This document shows positions 10,637 through 18,838 of a DNA stretch of 64,000 nucleotides, in pieces. The stretch comes from Streptomyces thermolilacinus SPC6 (GTDB taxonomy: Bacteria > Actinomycetota > Actinomycetes > Streptomycetales > Streptomycetaceae): positions 3,387,895 to 3,451,894 of the forward strand of contig NZ_ASHX02000001.1 of assembly GCF_000478605.2 (NCBI RefSeq). The letters run 5' to 3'. Under the pieces are notes generated by a model. It did not search any database and was not told where the DNA came from. It worked only from the letters and a program-made list of their open reading frames with translations. The translations under genes and the position numbers were made by a program. Each line of letters starts with the position of its first letter. Positions within the stretch are counted from its first letter, which is position 1.

Positions 10637-11134
10637 ATGAGCCCGAGCCCGAGTCCCCGTCCGAGCCCGCGACCGAGCCCGAGGCCGCGCATCGGCCTGC
10701 GGCGACGAGCGGCCGGTGGTGCCGCGCTCGACGGGGCGGTGCTGGGGGCCGTGGCCCTGGGCGGGGCGCTGGGCGCGGGGGCGAGGTACGGCGTGGCGGT
10801 GGCGCTGCCCACCGGGCAGGACGGGTTCCCCTGGGCGACGCTGTGGACGAACGTCGCGGGCTGCGCGCTGATGGGCGTGTTCATGGCGCTGCTGGACGAG
10901 GCGCGGCGCCCGCACCGGCTGCTGCGGCCCCTGGTCGGTACGGGCATGCTGGGCGGGTTCACGACGTTCTCGGCGTACGCCCTGGAGACCCGGGCGCTGC
11001 TGGAGGGCGGCCGTGCGGTGACGGCGTTCGCGTACCTGGCGGGCACGCTGGTCGCGGCGCTGCTGGCGGTGGCGGTGGCGGCGTGGGCGACTCGGGGCGC
11101 GGTGGCGCTGGTACGGAGGAGGCGGGCGGCATGA
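10637..11134 (+). CDS. crcB: Fluoride channel CrcB/Fluc, first copy
   Basis: A 165-residue small membrane protein of the CrcB/Fluc family, which exports fluoride as a dual-topology dimer. Four hydrophobic segments and the signature '[13 protein letters not shown]' are visible, with '[11 protein letters not shown]' for the conserved Asn region. The first 25 residues are a Pro-Ser-Arg repeat unusual for the family. The stop overlaps the next start (ATGA), so translation of the three genes crcB-DUF190-crcB is probably coupled. Paired crcB genes generally encode the two halves of a heterodimeric channel. Confidence 0.9.
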
Positions 11135-11631
11135 CCGGTACGGCCCGGGTGCCGTCGGGTGCGGCTACGCGGCTGACGGTCCTCGTCGGGGAGGCGGACC
11201 AGTGGCGCCACAGGCCGCTGTACGCGGAGATCGTGCACCGCGCCCACGAGGCGGGCCTCGCGGGGGCGAGCGTGTTCCGGGGCGTGGAGGGCTTCGGCGC
11301 GTCGTCGCGGGTCCACACGTCACGGCTGCTGTCGCTGAGCGAGGACCTGCCGGTGGCGGTGGTGATCGTGGACGAGGACGCGCGGGTGCGGGAGTTCCTG
11401 CCCAGGCTGGAGGGCCTCGTGGACGGCGGCCTGGTGACGCTGGAGCGCTGCGAGGTGGTGCGGTACGGGGACGGAGCCCCTGGTGCGGGCCCGGGTTCCG
11501 GTGCGGGCGGTGACCCGCGCGCGGGCGGTGCGGGGTCCGGTGCGGGCGGCGGCTCCGGTACGGGTGATGGCTCCGGTTCGGGCGGCGGCTCCGGTACGGG
11601 CGGTGCGGGCGGCGGGGGCGTGGCCGGGTGA
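11131..11631 (+). CDS. DUF190 domain protein between two crcB genes
   Basis: A 166-residue protein with a DUF190 domain (about residues 8-115): '[22 protein letters not shown]', '[12 protein letters not shown]' and '[14 protein letters not shown]'. This ferredoxin-like, PII-resembling fold is often encoded beside crcB, so a role in fluoride sensing or channel control is inferred from context. The last 45 residues are an almost pure Gly/Ser/Ala tail encoded by degenerate GGTGCGGGC-like repeats, not normally part of DUF190. It overlaps both neighbours by four bases (ATGA and GTGA). Confidence 0.85.
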
Positions 11632-11990
11632 CGTGGCTGCTGGTGCTGGTGGGTGGCGCGCTGGGCGCCCCGCTGCGGTACCTGACCGACCGGGCGGTTC
11701 AGTCGCGGCACGACTCGGTGTTCCCGTGGGGCACCCTGACCGTCAACGTCCTGGGCTCCCTCGTGCTGGGCGTCCTCGCGGGCGCGGCGGTGGCGTCCCC
11801 GGCGTACGCCCTGCTGGGCACCGGCCTGTGCGGGGCGCTCACGACGTACTCGACGTTCTCGTACGAGACGCTCCGCCTGACCAGCGCGGGCTCCGCCCGG
11901 TACGCGGCCGCCAACGCGGCGGTGACGGTCGCCGCGTCCCTGGGCGCGGTGGCGGCGGGCGTGGCGCTGGGGCGCGCCCTCGGGGGGTGA
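11628..11990 (+). CDS. crcB: Fluoride channel CrcB/Fluc, second copy
   Basis: A 120-residue CrcB protein with four hydrophobic helices and the signatures '[13 protein letters not shown]', '[11 protein letters not shown]' and '[11 protein letters not shown]'. It starts at a GTG that overlaps the stop of the DUF190 gene. Compared with the first copy it is shorter and closer to the family standard, with the usual Asn-x-x-Gly-Ser. The two probably assemble together to expel fluoride. It is the last gene of the operon; the next gene starts about 80 bases on without an obvious terminator. Confidence 0.92.
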
Positions 11991-12074
11991 GCCGCGCCGG
12001 ACGCCCTCCGGCGGCACGGGGGCAGGCACGGGGGGCCGTCACCACGCGGGTTGCGGGCGGTCCAGACTGAACGC

Positions 12075-12938
12075 GTGGAGGACGCGGTGGCGAGGGCGCA
12101 GAAGTCGCAGAGGGCGGATACGGCCGCGATGGCGGAGCTGGCGGAGCGGCTGGTCCGGGTCGGCGGGGTCGTCGGGGTGTGCCTCGGCGGGAGCCGGGCC
12201 CGCGGGACGCACCGGGAGGACTCCGACTTCGACCTGGGCCTGTACTACCGGGCGCCCCCCGACACCGGCGCGCTGCGGCGACTCGCGGCCGAGCTGACCG
12301 GCACCGACGTGGAGGTGACCGAGCCGGGCGGCTGGGGGCCCTGGGTGGACGGCGGCGCGTGGCTGACGGTCGGCGGGCGGCGGGTGGACTGGATCTACCG
12401 GGACGTCGACCGGGTACGGCGCGTCTGGGCCGAGTGCCTGGCCGGGCGGTACGAGGTCGGCGCGCAGGCCGGGCACCCGCTGGGCGTGTACGCGCACGCG
12501 TACGTCGGGGAGCTGGCACTGGGCCGGGTCCTCGCCGACCCGACCGGCGAACTGCGGGCCTTGCGCGGGCGGTTGCACCCGTACCCGGCTCCGCTGCGGG
12601 ACGCGCTCGTGGCCAACGCCCGCTGGGAGGTGCCGTTCACCCTGGGCGTCGCCCGCAAGGGGGCGGCGCGCGGGGACGCCTTCCACGTGGCCGGGTGCCT
12701 GTTCCGCGCGGTCGGCCTGCTGGTCCACGCCCTGCACGCCCACGCCGGGGCCTGGCTGATCAACGAGAAGGGCGCCGTGGACGAGGCCGCCCGCCTCCCC
12801 GCCGCGCCCGCCGGTTTCGCCCGGCGCGCCCACGCCCTGTTCGCCGCGCCGGCGACGACCCCGGAGGCCCTGCACGCCACCCTGGACGCCGCCGACCACC
12901 TGGCGTCCGAGGTCCTGGAGGCCCTGGGGGCGGGGTGA
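12075..12938 (+). CDS. Nucleotidyltransferase-domain protein
   Basis: About 287 residues with a polymerase-beta-like nucleotidyltransferase domain. The motif 'GGSRARGTHREDSDFDL' gives the GS plus D-x-D metal-binding signature, and 'VDWIYRDVDRV' supplies a likely third acidic residue. The C-terminal half is helical ('NARWEVPFTLGVARKGAA', 'FRAVGLLVHALHAHAG'), like the substrate-binding part of aminoglycoside or MNT-type transferases. The start is uncertain: GTG 12075 is used here; TTG 12051 and ATG 12129 remain possible. No antitoxin-like HEPN partner is adjacent, so a toxin-antitoxin role is not supported. Confidence 0.75.
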   Translation: MEDAVARAQKSQRADTAAMAELAERLVRVGGVVGVCLGGSRARGTHREDSDFDLGLYYRAPPDTGALRRLAAELTGTDVEVTEPGGWGPWVDGGAWLTVGGRRVDWIYRDVDRVRRVWAECLAGRYEVGAQAGHPLGVYAHAYVGELALGRVLADPTGELRALRGRLHPYPAPLRDALVANARWEVPFTLGVARKGAARGDAFHVAGCLFRAVGLLVHALHAHAGAWLINEKGAVDEAARLPAAPAGFARRAHALFAAPATTPEALHATLDAADHLASEVLEALGAG

Positions 12939-13146: not shown

Positions 13147-13743
13147 TCACCCCGCCAGGTACGCCAGGCTCGTCGCGGCGCCCAGGGCCGCGCCCGCCAG
13201 GACCTGGGCCGCCGTGTGGTAGCGGAGCGCCACGCGGGACCAGCAGACGGCGGCCGTCATGGCGTACGCGGTGAGCCACCACGCCGAGTGGACGCACGCC
13301 AGGAGCGTGACCACCGATGACGCGACGGCCGAGTCCACGGAGATCTTCCACACCGTGTTGACGGCCAGCAGCCCCACCGTCATCGCCCACAGCGCGAGCA
13401 TCGCGACCAGGATGCCGGTCGGCGCCCCGCCCAGGACCATGACCAGGGAGCCCGTACCGATCGAGCCGAGGATCACGAAGAAGATCGGCGCCCGTTGGGT
13501 GCGGTCCACGACGTGCCGGTCGCCCCACCGACCCCGGCCCCGTTCCCACTCGATGTACGCCGCCGGGACGATGCCCGCGCACAGCGCGCCGAGCAGCCCC
13601 CACAGCAGGCCCGTCCAGTGGCCCGCCGCGAAGCCGCCGACGGCGAGCATGCCGACGAGCAGGACATTGCGCGGCTGGAGGACGTCGGTGACCCGCCGGG
13701 CCACGGTCTCCACCGGGTACGCGGACACGGGCGGGGCCGTCAT
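13147..13743 (-). CDS. PAP2-like membrane protein, last gene of the EspR-ImmA cassette
   Basis: A 198-residue membrane protein with five or six hydrophobic segments. Near its end, 'SRVALRYHTAAQVLAGAALG' matches the third PAP2 phosphatase motif (SR-x5/6-H). The other motifs are degenerate: 'DRTQRAPIFF' stands where K-x6-RP is expected and 'KISVDSAVAS' where PSGH is expected. Catalysis on lipid phosphates is therefore uncertain. The ATG overlaps the stop of the upstream gene (ATGA), a strong sign of coupling to the MAB_1171c-type protein. Confidence 0.75.
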   Translation of the reverse strand: MTAPPVSAYPVETVARRVTDVLQPRNVLLVGMLAVGGFAAGHWTGLLWGLLGALCAGIVPAAYIEWERGRGRWGDRHVVDRTQRAPIFFVILGSIGTGSLVMVLGGAPTGILVAMLALWAMTVGLLAVNTVWKISVDSAVASSVVTLLACVHSAWWLTAYAMTAAVCWSRVALRYHTAAQVLAGAALGAATSLAYLAG

Positions 13744-14948
13744 GCGAGCAGCCGCCTCGCGCGCTCCTCCGGTATCGACCGGTACGCCTCCGCCACCCGC
13801 ACGAGCCATGCCACCTCACCGTCCTGGTCCGTCGCCTGCCGGGTGTCGAACTCCGCCGCCTCACCGGCCTGCGCGCCCGCCGCCTTCGCCGCCAGCGCCG
13901 CCTTGATCCAGTACGCGTCCGCCACAGGCCCCGCCGAGCCCGCCGCCTCCCGGGCGGCCGGGAGCAGTCCGTGCGGCACGTAGTGGCGCAGCTTCTCCAC
14001 GGCGTCCGCGATGTCCGCCGCCCACCGGTCCACCCGCAGGTCGGCGGGGGTGCCGAAGCGGGTCAGCTCCCGCGCCAGCGACGCGGGCGGCGCGAACGGC
14101 TGGTCGGGGAACGCCGCCATCAGCTCCCGCCACAGCGGGTGCAGCGCCACCTGCGCCCGCCAGAGCCGCACCCGCCGCCAGCCGCTGCGACACGCCGGGA
14201 TGGACGCGCCGACCGCGAACAGCGCGAACAGCAGCACCTGGGCCGCCTCCGTCGCCTTGTCGAAACCCTCGGCGAAGCCGGCGGTCGGCTCCTCCGCGAC
14301 GCTGATCCACAGGAACAGCGTGCGGCTCACCGTGTACGCGACGCCGATGAACATCGCCGCCGTCATCATCCCGAGCCCCACCCGCAGGTGCCGCAGCGGC
14401 GCGTTGGCCGTCGCCAGCGCCCACTGGTACGCGCACACGGCCGACGCGGCGCCCAGGTACACGTAGAACACCGTCATGTAGAGCGAGGCGCCCCACTGTC
14501 CCGCGTGGTCCGACACGAACCGGTCCGAGGGGACGGAGCGGTCCACGACGGTGAAGAACAGCACGGTCAGCAGGACCAGCGTCGCCACGGACGCCTTCGC
14601 CGCGACGTGCTGGATCATCCGCGCGAAGCGGACGTGCCGCGGGACGGTCCCGCCGTCCGGGTACGAGCCGTAGATCGCCACGATGTAGCTGAGGATCGCC
14701 AGGATCGCGACCGTCGCCGTGTAGTGCTTGATCAGTACGGCGAGGTCCACCACCGGGCTGTTGTTGAGGCTGGTCCGCACGATGTGGGTCTTCGTCCACA
14801 GGGCGGCGGCGAACCCGGCGTAGCAGCCCCACAGGGCGCGGCGGCGCTTGTCCTCCTCGTCGCCCCACAGCGCCGCGGGCATCCGCCACAGCGCCACGGC
14901 CGTCATCAGGGCGGCCACCAGGTAGCCGGCCAGGTCCAGGGCAGTCAA
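13740..14948 (-). CDS. MAB_1171c-type putative membrane transporter
   Basis: A 402-residue protein with about seven N-terminal membrane helices (residues 1-235) and a cytoplasmic, helical C-terminal domain. The TTG start at 14948 has GAGGA nearby and gives the normal N-terminus 'TALDLAGYLVAALMTAVAL'. It resembles the family named after mycobacterial MAB_1171c; 'transporter' there is only putative. It follows the metalloprotease gene by 37 bases and overlaps the PAP2-like gene. The constant co-occurrence with an EspR-like regulator and an ImmA/IrrE-like protease suggests a signalling or cell-envelope stress module. Confidence 0.78.
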   Translation of the reverse strand: MTALDLAGYLVAALMTAVALWRMPAALWGDEEDKRRRALWGCYAGFAAALWTKTHIVRTSLNNSPVVDLAVLIKHYTATVAILAILSYIVAIYGSYPDGGTVPRHVRFARMIQHVAAKASVATLVLLTVLFFTVVDRSVPSDRFVSDHAGQWGASLYMTVFYVYLGAASAVCAYQWALATANAPLRHLRVGLGMMTAAMFIGVAYTVSRTLFLWISVAEEPTAGFAEGFDKATEAAQVLLFALFAVGASIPACRSGWRRVRLWRAQVALHPLWRELMAAFPDQPFAPPASLARELTRFGTPADLRVDRWAADIADAVEKLRHYVPHGLLPAAREAAGSAGPVADAYWIKAALAAKAAGAQAGEAAEFDTRQATDQDGEVAWLVRVAEAYRSIPEERARRLLA

Positions 14949-14985
14949 TTCGCGTCCTCGTGGGGGGAGGGGGTCCGTGGGGTGG

Positions 14986-15567
14986 TCAGTCGCGCCGGAA
15001 CAGGCCCCGGCGGGGGTGGGCGACCGGTCTGGACAGGGAGTTGGCGAGCCGCCCCACCATGTCGTCGCTCGACACGTCCCGCGCCAGCCGGGGGATCAGC
15101 GAGGCGCCGAGCTCCGCCATCCGCTCGTCGTGCGTGTCGTACTGGGCGCGGGCCTGCACGGTGGTGCCCGCCTCCATCATCCGGGAGATCAGCGACGTGT
15201 CGAACACGGGCAGCAGACGCCGCAGTTGGTCCGCGTCGAGCGACGTGCCGTGGTCGAACCACTCGTGGCACAGCTCGTGCAGGATGACGTGCTGCGTCTG
15301 GTACGTGGTGGGGCGGCGCCGGTACAGGACGAAGCTCGTGTTCCCGGCCTTCAGCCGGAGCCCGCAGGCGGAGTTGACGCGCGCGAGGCGGTCGGGCAGC
15401 TCCCGCAGGACGATGCGGCGGCCCCGCGCGGCCTCCATGTTGGCGATGAGCTCGGGGATGCCGAACGGCGCCGGGATCGGAAGGTCGGCCAGCCGGGCCT
15501 CGCACTCTCTGCGCAGCGCGCGCATGGACCGCGTGGCGCGCGTGGTCCGCGTGGATCGCTGGGACAT
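14986..15567 (-). CDS. ImmA/IrrE-like metalloprotease
   Basis: A 193-residue protein with the zinc-protease motif 'HVILHELCHEW' (HExxH) at about residues 92-102 and the preceding segment 'SFVLYRRRPTTYQTQ', as in COG2856 proteins. Characterised members cleave a partner XRE-type repressor (ImmA on ImmR, IrrE on DdrO). ATG 15567 is preferred because AAGAGG lies five bases upstream; a GTG 24 bases earlier lacks such support. The adjacent upstream gene encodes an EspR-like HTH protein, the obvious candidate substrate, but cleavage here is inference. Confidence 0.82.
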   Translation of the reverse strand: MSQRSTRTTRATRSMRALRRECEARLADLPIPAPFGIPELIANMEAARGRRIVLRELPDRLARVNSACGLRLKAGNTSFVLYRRRPTTYQTQHVILHELCHEWFDHGTSLDADQLRRLLPVFDTSLISRMMEAGTTVQARAQYDTHDERMAELGASLIPRLARDVSSDDMVGRLANSLSRPVAHPRRGLFRRD

Positions 15568-15719
15568 CGAGACCTCTTGATCGTCAGCCACGTGGGGTGT
15601 GACCTGCGAACTGCGAGTCTAGCCAAGCGGATGCGGACGCGCGTTCGTCAACGGCCTTCCGCGCCGCCCGCCACCTCGTCCCGCGCAGCAGCGCCCGCCG
15701 GGCGGCCCGCCGCCCTGCC

Positions 15720-16202
15720 TCACGCGCCGTCCGGCGTGCCGCCCGCCTGGTCGCCCTCCGCCGTGCCGGAAGGGCCGCCTCCCTGCGCCTCCTTGAGCAG
15801 CGACAGTGCGAACTCCAGCAGCTCCGGGGGCAGTCCCGCGTCGTCCACGCCCCGCGCCGCGAGGCCGCTGATCTCACCCGTACGGCGCTTCACCAGGAAC
15901 TGGAGGCCCGCGACGACGTCGTCCACGACCTCCGACTCCTCCTTGAAGAACCGCCAGTCCACGCCGAAGCCGAGGCCGAGCGCCTTCAGGATGTCCTCGG
16001 ACGGGTGGGTCACCTTGCCCGCCAGGATGTTGGAGAAGTAGCTGTGCGAGAGGGAGCCGCCGCGCTCCCTGACCAGCTCGGAGAAGGCCCGGCCCGAGAC
16101 CTTCTGGCCGGGGAAGGTCTTCTCCACCATGTAGGCGACCTTCTGCTGAAGCGTTCTCAGCTCGGGTGCCGCGGTGCGCTCCCCGCCGTTGCCGTCGTCC
16201 AT
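15720..16202 (-). CDS. EspR-like helix-turn-helix regulator
   Basis: A 160-residue DNA-binding protein. An XRE-type HTH occupies about residues 20-85 ('VSGRAFSELVRERGGSLSHS', 'SNILAGKVTHPSEDILKAL'), followed by a helical dimerisation part with 'VVDDVVAGLQFLVKRRT' and 'LPPELLEFALSLLKEA'. This arrangement is that of mycobacterial EspR. The C-terminal 20 residues are a disordered Gly/Pro/Asp tail. It heads a leftward set of four genes, 130-150 bases before the protease gene, and is divergent from the potassium transporter. Confidence 0.82.
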   Translation of the reverse strand: MDDGNGGERTAAPELRTLQQKVAYMVEKTFPGQKVSGRAFSELVRERGGSLSHSYFSNILAGKVTHPSEDILKALGLGFGVDWRFFKEESEVVDDVVAGLQFLVKRRTGEISGLAARGVDDAGLPPELLEFALSLLKEAQGGGPSGTAEGDQAGGTPDGA

Positions 16203-16758
16203 CCCGGTCCCCACGTTCGCGTCCGCCGCTGCTGCGCGGTCAATCAACGGGCCCGTACTGTACCGATCCCGGCCCGGGCGGTTCAGGTCCGGAACGGGCT
16301 TGCGCAAACACTCTACGTCACTGTTAACTCGAAAAAACATGGACAGGGGGCCACGAGGGGAGTCCCTTGTCCGTACGGGAACGCGTGTGCCCGGACCGAC
16401 CCGAACGGCCCGGGCGCACGCGGCCCCGCAGCGCCGTCCGCGCGCCCGTTCCCCGTACGCGCCCGGCACGCCCCGCGCCCGTTCTCCCCTGTACGCCCCC
16501 GGCCCGTACGCACCCCGCGCCCCGGCCCGTACGCGCTCGCCCCGCGCCCGTACCGCCCTCGCCCGCGCCGGTACGCGCCTCCGTCCCGTACGCGCCCGCC
16601 TCCCGCGCCCGCACGCGCCCCGCGCCCGCACGCGCGTGCGGCGCCGCGCGTACCGTGGCGTGCCGGCCTCCGTGGCGGTGGAGGCGCCGCCGGGTAGGGT
16701 GACCCCCCGGCCCGCGCGGTGGTCGCCGGGCGGGACGACGGAAGGGCCGGAGACCGCG
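16203..16758. other. Divergent intergenic region with a C-rich, CGTACGC-repetitive segment
   Basis: A 556-base gap between the EspR-like gene and the TrkH-like gene. The left 130 bases contain the only A/T-rich patch (around 16305-16340, with GTTAAC and a run of A), a plausible promoter area for the leftward cassette. From about 16370 to 16660 the plus strand is an extreme C-rich string with many GTACGCCCC/CCCGTACGC-like units and almost no G runs. It shows no convincing reading frame in either direction. A transcribed C-rich leader for trkH is possible. Confidence 0.5.
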
Positions 16759-18132
16759 GTGGCTGGACGTGCGACAGGGGTGGGGCACCGGCTGTTCGCC
16801 GCCCATCCGGCCCGCACGCTGGTGCTGGCGTTCGCCGTGGCCGTCCTCGTCGGCACGGGCCTGCTGTCGCTGCCGCTCGCCACCGCGGACGGGCACTCCG
16901 CCGGTTTCGTCACGGCCCTGTTCACCGCCACGTCCGCCGTGTGCGTCACCGGCCTGGTCGTGGTGGACACGGGCACGTACTGGAGCGGCTTCGGCCAAGG
17001 GGTCATCCTGGCCCTCGTCCAGGCCGGCGGCTTCGGCATCATGACGATGGCCTCGCTGCTCGCGCTCCTGATCTCCGGGAGGCTGCGGCTGCGCCTCCAG
17101 CTGACGGCGCTCGCCGAGACGAAGACCTTCGGCATCGGGGACGTACGCCGGGTGCTGCTCGGCGTCGCAGGGACGACCGCCGCCGTGGAGCTGGCCGTGA
17201 GCGCCGTGCTCGCGCTGCGGTTCCGCTTCGGGTACGACATGCCGGTGGGGCAGGCCGCGTACCACGCGTTCTTCCACGCCGTGTCGGCCTTCAACAACGG
17301 CGGCTTCGCCCTGCTCCTGGACAGCGTCGTCCCGTACCGGACCGATCCGCTGGTGACGTTGCCCATCGCGGCCGCCGTCATCCTCGGCGGCATCGGTTTC
17401 CCCGTCCTGCTGGAGCTGCTGCGGCACCGCAGGCGGCGGCTGACCACGGGACGGCGCGGCTGGACGCTCCACACCAAGCTGACCATCGTCACCACGGCCG
17501 CCCTGCTGTTCACCGGCACCGCCCTGACCACCCTGCTGGAGTGGGGCAACCCCGACACCTTCGGCCCGCTCCACTGGAGCGGGAAGCTGCTGAACGGCTT
17601 CTTCCACTCCGCGATGACCCGCTCCGGAGGCTTCAACGCCGTCGATGTCGGCGCGATGGAAGCCTCCACCCTGCTGATGACCTGCACGCTGATGTTCGTG
17701 GGCGGCGGCAGCGCGGGCACGGCGGGCGGCATCAAGGTGACCACCTTCGCGGTGCTGGCCGCCGCGATGGTCGCGGAGGCGCGCGGCGAGCCCAACTCGA
17801 CCATCATGGGCCGCCGTCTCGCCCCGCACGCGCTGCGCCAGGCCCTGACGGTCGCGCTGCTCGGCGTCGGCTTCGTGATAGCGGCGACGCTCGCGCTGCT
17901 GACCGTGGTGAAGGCGCCGCTGGAGGCCGTGCTGTTCGAGGCGGTCTCGGCGTTCGCGACCGTCGGTCTGTCCACCGGGATCACGGCGGACCTGCCGGTC
18001 TCCGGGGAACTGATCGTGATCCTGCTCATGTTCGTCGGCCGGCTCGGCCCGGTCACCCTCGTCTCGGCCCTCGCCCTGCGGGAGCGCAAGCGCCGGTACG
18101 AGCTACCCGAGGAGCGACCTGTCATTGGGTGA
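16759..18132 (+). CDS. TrkH/KtrB-type potassium channel subunit
   Basis: A 457-residue membrane protein with the four M1-P-M2 repeats of the Trk/Ktr/HKT superfamily. Selectivity-loop glycines are visible in 'TATSAVCVTGL', 'SAFNNGGFAL', 'SAMTRSGGFNAVDVG' and 'SAFATVGLSTGIT'. 'GGGSAGTAGGIKVTT' is the conserved hinge region of the third repeat. GTG 16759 is chosen because GGAG lies six bases upstream and the protein then starts at family length. Its end overlaps the start of the RCK-domain gene by eight bases, so the two form a transporter-regulator pair importing potassium. Confidence 0.93.
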   Translation: MAGRATGVGHRLFAAHPARTLVLAFAVAVLVGTGLLSLPLATADGHSAGFVTALFTATSAVCVTGLVVVDTGTYWSGFGQGVILALVQAGGFGIMTMASLLALLISGRLRLRLQLTALAETKTFGIGDVRRVLLGVAGTTAAVELAVSAVLALRFRFGYDMPVGQAAYHAFFHAVSAFNNGGFALLLDSVVPYRTDPLVTLPIAAAVILGGIGFPVLLELLRHRRRRLTTGRRGWTLHTKLTIVTTAALLFTGTALTTLLEWGNPDTFGPLHWSGKLLNGFFHSAMTRSGGFNAVDVGAMEASTLLMTCTLMFVGGGSAGTAGGIKVTTFAVLAAAMVAEARGEPNSTIMGRRLAPHALRQALTVALLGVGFVIAATLALLTVVKAPLEAVLFEAVSAFATVGLSTGITADLPVSGELIVILLMFVGRLGPVTLVSALALRERKRRYELPEERPVIG

Positions 18133-18838
18133 CTACCTGCACCATCTGCGCGGCAGGCGCCGCAAGCGCCTCGCCGAGACCGACACGGGCGACCAGCGGG
18201 TCGCCGTCATAGGGCTGGGCCGGTTCGGCAGCTCGCTGGCCCACGAGCTGACCCGGCGCGGCTGGGACGTCCTCGGCATCGACACGGACGCCCGGCTGGT
18301 CCAGAAGGTCAGCGACGTCCTCACCCACTCGGCCGTCGCCGACTGCACCGACCCCGAGGTGCTGGAACAGCTCGGCGTGCACGAGTTCACCAGCGCCGTC
18401 GTCGGCATCGGCACGGACGTGGAGGCGAGCATCCTCATCGCCGCGAACCTGCTCGACGCCGGGGTCCCCAACATCTGGGCCAAGGCCATCAGCCGCCAGC
18501 ACGGGCAGATCCTGAAGCGGCTCGGCGTCCACCACGTGGTGCTGCCCGAGCACGAGATGGGCGAGCGGGTCGCGCACCTGGTGACCGGGCGGATGCTCGA
18601 CTTCATCCAGTTCGACGACGACTACGCGCTGGTCAAGACGGTCGCCCCGGACATCGCGACGGGCGTCCCGCTCGGCGAGAGCCAGGTCCGCAGCCGGTGG
18701 GGCGTGACGGTCGTCGGCATCAAGCGGCCGGGTCAGGACTTCACGTACGCGACGGCCGAGACGGTCATGGAGCGCGGTGACGTCATCGTCGTCACCGGCA
18801 AGACGCATGCGGTGGAGTCCTTCGCGGAGCTGAGCTGA
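18125..18838 (+). CDS. TrkA/KtrA-type RCK regulatory subunit
   Basis: A 237-residue cytosolic regulator with an RCK_N domain ('VAVIGLGRFGSSLAHEL', about residues 25-145; the acidic residue after beta-2 is the D in 'GIDTDARL') and an RCK_C domain (about 150-235, ending 'GDVIVVTGKTHAVE'). It binds nucleotide and gates the TrkH/KtrB pore. The start is a TTG within the end of the pore gene, with GAGGAG about ten bases upstream. Overlap and order make a two-gene ktr operon certain in practice. Confidence 0.92.
   Translation: MGDYLHHLRGRRRKRLAETDTGDQRVAVIGLGRFGSSLAHELTRRGWDVLGIDTDARLVQKVSDVLTHSAVADCTDPEVLEQLGVHEFTSAVVGIGTDVEASILIAANLLDAGVPNIWAKAISRQHGQILKRLGVHHVVLPEHEMGERVAHLVTGRMLDFIQFDDDYALVKTVAPDIATGVPLGESQVRSRWGVTVVGIKRPGQDFTYATAETVMERGDVIVVTGKTHAVESFAELS

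Follow-up and report, generated by a model that had tools for sequence, protein, structure and literature searches.

A cassette of four genes in Streptomyces thermolilacinus SPC6 (genome of 6.45 Mb; contig NZ_ASHX02000001.1, positions 3,387,895–3,451,894, a stretch of 64,000 nucleotides hereafter called the window) appears to be one copy of a widespread actinobacterial signaling module, a reading to which we give roughly even odds (a probability near 0.5). The genes lie on the minus strand, are transcribed from position 16202 to position 13147 in the order REG–PROT–DUF–PAP, and encode an EspR-family DNA-binding regulator, a metalloprotease of the ImmA/IrrE type, a membrane protein of the MAB_1171c family (DUF6545) and a PAP2-like membrane protein. 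In the module as we propose it, DUF would be a receptor, PROT and REG would relay its signal, and the fourth gene would encode an enzyme acting on the ligand. The general module, with its exchangeable enzyme, is a more important result than the window cassette itself. An earlier note on this DNA, made from the sequence alone, had described the same operon, and profiles, structure models and open reading frames bear that description out. The note had also supposed that nothing of this kind had an assigned function, and the system is apparently undescribed: open-licence PubMed Central (PMC) literature gave no established function, with one paper for MAB_1171c (PMC8707978), none for DUF6545 and, by title or abstract start, no description of the module, which may exist elsewhere.

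The four-gene set and its protease–membrane protein core

Joint conservation of the four genes was a point on which the earlier proposal was to stand or fall, and they are conserved together: scanning genome contigs with DUF fetched 61 orthologous loci, all from Streptomyces, of which 55 have the complete set. The incomplete loci comprise two without PAP (L003 and L049, the latter with an apparent decayed PAP remnant), one with DUF alone (L032), one at a contig edge (L039), one without REG and PROT (L056) and one holding PAP and a DUF remnant (L062); the REG–PROT pair is found in 57 of the 61 in addition to the window. The window copy has 152 nt between REG and PROT (measured to the ATG), 37 nt between PROT and DUF, and a 4 nt overlap of the DUF stop with the PAP start. 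Overlapping or nearly abutting DUF and PAP genes (gap ≤10 nt) recur in 48 of 57 pairs. Flanking genes vary, TrkH being found in 3 and the nucleotidyltransferase in 1 of the 61 loci within the fetched stretches, and since the four genes persist as the flanks change, the borders of the unit are approximately those drawn in the earlier note.

Beyond these orthologues the DUF6545 profile (PF20182) matches 166 of the 199 Streptomyces genomes sampled, in which as many as 11 copies occur, and 71 of 394 genomes sampled from the class Actinomycetes, the latter matches spanning 29 of 137 genera. The gene-neighborhood survey suggested by the earlier note covered 120 DUF6545 neighborhoods from 69 of these 71 genomes (omitting G000, G497 and some second matches) and yielded 129 DUF frames in 119 loci, 10 loci having two frames, one (L182) having none by profile, and 5 of the 129 frames being short (match <250 aa). 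Genes were called by a simple codon-usage caller, and iterated profile searches of the fetched loci were used to extend the families, such that the counts may shift by a few. On this basis a core of PROT and DUF is general, for PROT lies directly upstream of DUF on the same strand in 111 of the 129 frames, and 121 have it somewhere within 3.5 kb; REG lies upstream in 68 and no further than 3.5 kb away in 92. Copy numbers run in parallel. In a search of 19 chosen genomes, with 150 first-look candidates scored per genome, the PROT:DUF counts of the nine DUF-bearing genomes were 1:1, 1:1, 8:8, 6:7, 11:11, 9:10, 10:9, 7:7 and 3:4, and nine of the ten genomes without DUF also lacked PROT, the tenth giving one marginal match (E 6e-6). 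Adjacency and copy number together indicate that PROT is tied more tightly to DUF than to REG. Generality extends to the core alone; the full set of four genes, with its altered form of PAP2, is a property of one clade.

The module is reordered in L185 and L191, where DUF comes first and REG and PROT lie downstream. In one genome a single frame (L258, 6281–7963, minus strand) joins a protease domain to a DUF6545 domain, the membrane part being missing, and the listed matches of a search of 343 Streptomyces genomes include no further full-length fusion. As proof of contact between the two proteins this frame was set aside as weak, coming from a single genome with split relatives and having no membrane part, and it may be a deletion product.

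Positions of the cassette, its upstream elements and neighboring genes in the window
Feature	Position	Strand	Remarks
REG, EspR-family DNA-binding regulator	15720..16202	(-)	160 aa; operon gene 1; open reading frame and EspR profile matches
PROT, ImmA/IrrE (M78)-type metalloprotease	14986..15591	(-)	201 aa (GTG 15591) or 193 aa (ATG 15567)
DUF, MAB_1171c-family / DUF6545 membrane protein	13740..14948	(-)	402 aa, TTG start; NF042915, PF20182, AlphaFold2 model
PAP, PAP2-like membrane protein	13147..13743	(-)	198 aa; PF01569 below cut-off; alignments
Conserved non-coding block CGAGTTAACAGTGACGTAGAGTGTTTGCGCAAG	16299..16331	(-)	some 96 nt 5' of REG; imperfect dyad GTTAACA-N11-TGTTTGC
Hairpin with a run of six T after it, resembling a terminator when read in the sense of REG	16332..16375	(-)	conserved C-rich loop ACTCCCCTCGTGG
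TrkH and TrkA potassium-uptake genes	16759-18838	(+)	divergent from the cassette; TrkA near the cassette in 2/61 fetched loci
Nucleotidyltransferase-domain protein (PF01909)	12051-12938	(+)	adjoins the cassette; neighborhood not conserved; weak, sub-cut-off matches to MntA (antitoxin) and HalB
Two small membrane-protein genes flanking a short gene	10739-11990	(+)	putative CrcB-type fluoride exporter pair, by resemblance

The four proteins and the DNA upstream of REG

PROT carries the zinc motif HELCH at residues 97–101 and a distal Glu148 (193-aa numbering). The HExxH motif is present in all 112 wider members and in all 58 called orthologues, the window copy (L001) included, and in an alignment of 97 rows (the window copy plus 96 wider members, the 16 others being short, long or near-duplicate calls) the only invariant columns are H97, E98, H101 and E148, as expected of a zinc-protease signature. 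The window protein alone gives no significant Pfam match, PF06114 (Peptidase_M78) included; that family matches 30 of the 97 aligned relatives at E 0.01. Its model is closest among solved structures to CapP, IrrE and PprI (VIA-align Z 8.2 to 6.2), with Z 8.2, root-mean-square deviation (rmsd) 3.7 and 127 aligned residues for CapP and Z 7.4, rmsd 3.7 and 107 aligned for IrrE; Foldseek gave a best E of 0.006 (CapP, PprI/IrrE) and nothing below 0.001, and BlaR1 reached Z 3.6 in VIA-align. Motif and fold therefore uphold the assignment, made already in the earlier note, of an HExxH protease of the repressor-cleaving type. PprI, ImmA and CapP are described in two reports as cleaving helix–turn–helix (HTH) repressors and so lifting repression (PMC10904395, PMC10233336).

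The single REG sequence has a weak match (HTH_31, E 0.033), the profile of 40 orthologues matches EspR at E 2.7e-4, and the wider-family profile of 71 members matches full-length EspR (3r1f) at E 4.5e-44. Judged by this profile similarity, REG belongs to the EspR family. In some other loci a divergent gene of a further cluster (c21) stands upstream of REG (L189, L194, L218, L225, L215, L238, L241 and L255); c21 genes lie near DUF in 11 survey loci, and one member (L218, 9098–10051) matches the MmyB-like ligand-binding domain PF17765.

Upstream of REG, the alignment of orthologous loci contains a nearly invariant block, CGAGTTAACAGTGACGTAGAGTGTTTRCGCAAG. With up to three mismatches allowed, its core is present in 57 of 57 orthologous loci with REG and in none of the 4 without, and it occurs once in the host genome. 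Among 150 Streptomyces genomes, 18 hold one copy each, the cassette being confirmed by eye in three of these (G107, G380 and G375). We infer that the block is a dedicated, putative REG operator or promoter. The adjoining hairpin has a covarying stem, with compensatory changes in 6 of 13 predicted pairs across 28 aligned sequences; it matches no Rfam family at E 1, the alignment shows no conserved promoter-like sequence on its upstream side, and it may be a terminator, an attenuator or a small RNA. L057 and L058, whose REG is about 50 per cent identical to that of the window, retain the block and do not retain the same hairpin. Other DUF6545 clades carry conserved upstream blocks of their own; an operator common to all clades was considered and rejected, since these blocks differ between clades and no shared motif was established.

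DUF is a member of the MAB_1171c family by the curated cut-off (NF042915, 150 bits where 100 are required) and matches DUF6545 (PF20182) at E 4.3e-24, with 86 bits against a cut-off of 24.4. An AlphaFold2 model built on 43 close orthologues (mean predicted local distance difference test score, pLDDT, 74.3; predicted template-modeling score, pTM, 0.56) predicts, within the first 280 residues, seven long helices, of which the final one enters a helical cytosolic domain corresponding to DUF6545 (about residues 260–391). The C-terminal tail begins with a Lys/Arg-rich stretch (8 basic against 3 acidic residues), as expected of an intracellular location. The best-conserved columns among 120 members (L269, L272, D315 and A345) lie mainly after the seventh helix, which fits a variable sensing part joined to a conserved output. 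Compared with the seven-transmembrane bundles of G-protein-coupled receptors (GPCRs), the model scores Z 17.1 in VIA-align (rmsd 3.9, 255 aligned), where helical bundles often reach Z 14, and the likeness may reflect a shared helix arrangement and nothing more. No bacterial seven-transmembrane sensor was among the matches listed for the model in the structure searches.

PAP has diverged from the PAP2 phosphatases in one respect and resembles them in others. It matches PF01569 (PAP2) at E 0.0077 with 16.4 bits, under the 27.2-bit cut-off. The earlier note had held that two of three phosphatase motifs were lost; only the C2 histidine is clearly gone, replaced by an Asp137 that is invariant in a 41-row alignment of the Streptomyces clade. 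The same alignment conserves a C1-like block (DRHVVDRTxRAP) and the C3 block (SRVxLxxH) with an invariant His176, and His is also found there in the other-clade rows that were compared. PAP has Gln at the position where PAP2 proteins usually have Asp. A sensor role for the protein, at which the earlier note had hinted, finds no specific support, for the same slot holds ordinary enzymes in other clades and all 12 other-clade PAP2 relatives compared keep the C2 His (WKxSxH-like). PAP is therefore better read as an enzyme or former enzyme, and it may have an altered chemistry or be a pseudoenzyme.

The exchangeable fourth gene

Of 119 DUF genes with a called next gene, 87 have that gene on their own strand. 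Most common among these 87, by similarity clusters whose names come from at most a few representatives each, are enzymes: FAD oxidoreductases (27), PAP2-like proteins (16), cytochromes P450 (8), short-chain dehydrogenases/reductases (SDRs, 5) and amidases (4). There follow amidohydrolases (3), REG (3), a second DUF (3), alpha/beta hydrolases (2) and NsdA-like regulators (2), then two one-member classes, one of them of the beta-lactamase family, and 12 singletons that include a methyltransferase and an MpaB-like oxygenase. Among plasmid records, L261 and L263 carry an annotated NUDIX hydrolase gene immediately 3' of DUF, which makes another class for the slot, and in L260 the module lies directly 3' of a fabG gene.

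A control was drawn from the same loci, in which 63 genes starting no more than 100 nt after DUF (DUF and REG frames left out) were set against 63 likewise-following genes, each set being tabulated for its 25 commonest families. The genes after DUF matched FAD_binding_3 (16), PAP2 (7), SDR (5), amidase (4), P450 (4) and amidohydrolase (3), with single matches to DUF222, Thiamine_BP and PadR; these rows are not independent, many of the FAD rows being close relatives. None of the main families reached two members in the control, whose commonest were SGL and BPD_transp_1 with 4 each.

The enzyme classes were then placed on a maximum-likelihood tree of 64 of the 120 DUF proteins, obtained after dropping 49 rows in which the gene downstream was absent or of another kind, together with 7 FAD near-copies. 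The classes require 12 changes, which may be gains or losses, against a minimum of 10 and a shuffled mean of 38.5. A single clade was rejected for the P450 carriers (p 0.0001) and for the PAP2 carriers (p 0.0008), in tests chosen after a quicker tree had been seen, and the FAD carriers form one clade. The quicker tree, which kept all 120 rows and counted no gene and other genes as states, needed 43 changes (shuffled mean 74.3), and it split FAD and other classes more often. For the most part, then, enzyme class goes with DUF lineage, and it has been exchanged more than once.

The proposed route, its rivals and related systems

Under the signaling reading, the seven-helix DUF would act as receptor of a small molecule, probably a lipophilic one, and its cytosolic DUF6545 domain would control the dedicated protease. 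PROT, once activated, would cleave REG, which would normally occupy the dyad upstream of its own gene, and this cleavage would alter transcription of the operon. The enzyme of the fourth gene would make, alter or remove the ligand, a place that is taken in the window by the PAP2-like protein with its altered active site. DUF would in this way exchange the DNA-damage input of related systems for a membrane input.

A route from membrane to protease to regulator had been proposed in the earlier note, and conservation of the set, the tie of PROT to DUF, the HExxH motif, the EspR family and the seven-helix model make it the best reading of the cassette, with cleavage of REG by PROT as its presumed last step; 37 of the 129 DUF frames have no REG within 3.5 kb. 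Several further observations weigh against it. Thirteen Streptomyces loci (L211, L222, L227, L234, L243, L245, L247 and L249–L254) have PROT, DUF and an FAD gene and no nearby REG, and PROT may there cut another substrate, encoded elsewhere. A hydropathy scan of DUF finds six separate segments, the model helix at 31–53 falling under the threshold, so that the count of seven remains a prediction. The DUF and PROT models (pLDDT 67.7 for the latter) come from shallow alignments of close orthologues; the GPCR-like match exceeds the level of helical bundles just moderately, no solved structure matched DUF by sequence or by Foldseek at E 0.001, and NCBI names the family a putative transporter. The nearest relatives of the fused frame keep separate protease and DUF genes. 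As to the fourth gene, it is on the opposite strand for 32 of the 119 DUF genes, one of its types is the NsdA-like regulator and some are unassigned, and vertical inheritance of the operon would by itself produce a link between enzyme and DUF lineage and explains part of it. Ligand binding, receptor activity, protease control, cleavage of REG, operator function and the link of enzyme to ligand are steps that we infer, and the seven-helix structure is a predicted one.

The same wiring could serve a switch for detoxification or catabolism, in which DUF senses an antibiotic, lipid or xenobiotic, PROT removes REG and the fourth enzyme degrades the compound, the ligand then being foreign instead of made by the cell. 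Amidases, amidohydrolases, a beta-lactamase-family protein, FAD oxidoreductases and P450s among the fourth genes would suit this, as would the available data on Mycobacterium abscessus MAB_1171c, described as a transporter, whose mutant has about half the biofilm mass of its parent (~50 per cent less) and lower minimum inhibitory concentrations for cefoxitin (4 vs 16) and clarithromycin (0.5 vs 2), with amikacin unchanged, several other mutants in the same table showing similar values (PMC8707978). SDRs and the methyltransferase fit synthesis equally well, however, and the altered PAP2 active site is held invariant in the window clade, and we consider this alternative unlikely. Somewhat more doubtful again is an arrangement in which DUF is no receptor and exports the product of the fourth enzyme, with REG and PROT forming a DNA-damage switch of the CapH/CapP or DdrO/IrrE type that responds to single-stranded DNA (ssDNA). 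The NCBI name and a PROT fold nearest to CapP and IrrE/PprI speak for it, together with the stimulation of CapP and PprI by ssDNA described in one report (PMC10904395); against it stand a tie of PROT to DUF that is tighter than that of either with REG, the odd number of helices and conserved cytosolic domain of the DUF model, and the absence of any PADLOC match for the four window proteins.

A toxin–antitoxin-like or phage-defence cassette, in which REG silences an effector that is either PROT or the fourth gene, seems very improbable. Two plasmid-borne relatives of PROT are annotated as a toxin or regulator component, and one report has HTH–ImmA pairs governing cyclic-oligonucleotide-based antiphage signaling systems (CBASS) and integrative and conjugative elements (ICEs) (PMC10233336). 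Yet DUF has no match in 50,697 phage records, none of the four window proteins has a PADLOC match, the fourth slot holds mostly metabolic enzymes, and the orthologues are conserved amid changing flanks. A phage or defence origin was rejected on the phage-record and PADLOC results. Nor did the PADLOC scan of the four window proteins give a match of the kind expected for defence genes beside a CBASS-type CapH/CapP pair, the flanking genes being TrkH/TrkA and the nucleotidyltransferase. A link to gamma-butyrolactones was tried and rejected as well: AfsA has no match in the host genome, and in 40 genomes the nearest AfsA–DUF6545 pair on one contig is about 25 kb apart (by eye). With no AfsA near DUF6545, this idea was dropped despite the plasmid record L261, in which the module lies beside a P450 and a ScbR-family regulator.

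If the signaling reading is right, actinobacteria would have a new way to sense chemicals, for which the module offers a concrete candidate substrate, protease, operator and enzyme. Should DUF6545 proteins be protease-coupled receptors, Streptomyces would possess many uncharacterized chemical inputs, with a possible bearing on silent metabolite pathways. It is possible, and we put it forward only tentatively as the less likely case, that these loci form a large unrecognized class of actinobacterial chemical signaling, made of many receptor lineages that would each possess a dedicated protease, in most cases an EspR-like repressor, and an enzyme that makes or destroys the ligand of that lineage; the fourth gene would then predict the chemistry of the signal.

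Among known systems, ImmR/ImmA (ICEBs1, TnSmu1), DdrO/IrrE(PprI) and CapH/CapP resemble the module in having an HTH regulator adjoining an HExxH metalloprotease of the ImmA/IrrE type. The module differs by its EspR-family regulator, its DUF6545 membrane protein and often an enzyme of small-molecule metabolism, and it differs from CapH/CapP-type defence in that the window proteins match no defence family. In BlaR1/MecR1–BlaI, sensing at the membrane leads to proteolysis of a repressor, and the protease domain lies within the membrane sensor itself. The outline is alike, whereas protease and membrane protein are separate in the module and the families differ. The MAB_1171c family is named a putative transporter, and we read it here as a protease-linked membrane receptor; the available text on the M. 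abscessus protein contains no transport assay (PMC8707978). EspR of Mycobacterium tuberculosis is homologous to the REG family over its full length and is titled in the PDB a nucleoid-associated protein and ESX-1 regulator, whereas REG adjoins a protease and a membrane protein. Relatives of a protein known from tuberculosis biology are thus found beside a protease of the repressor-cutting type, and M. tuberculosis EspR might itself be a relative that has parted from its receptor and protease.

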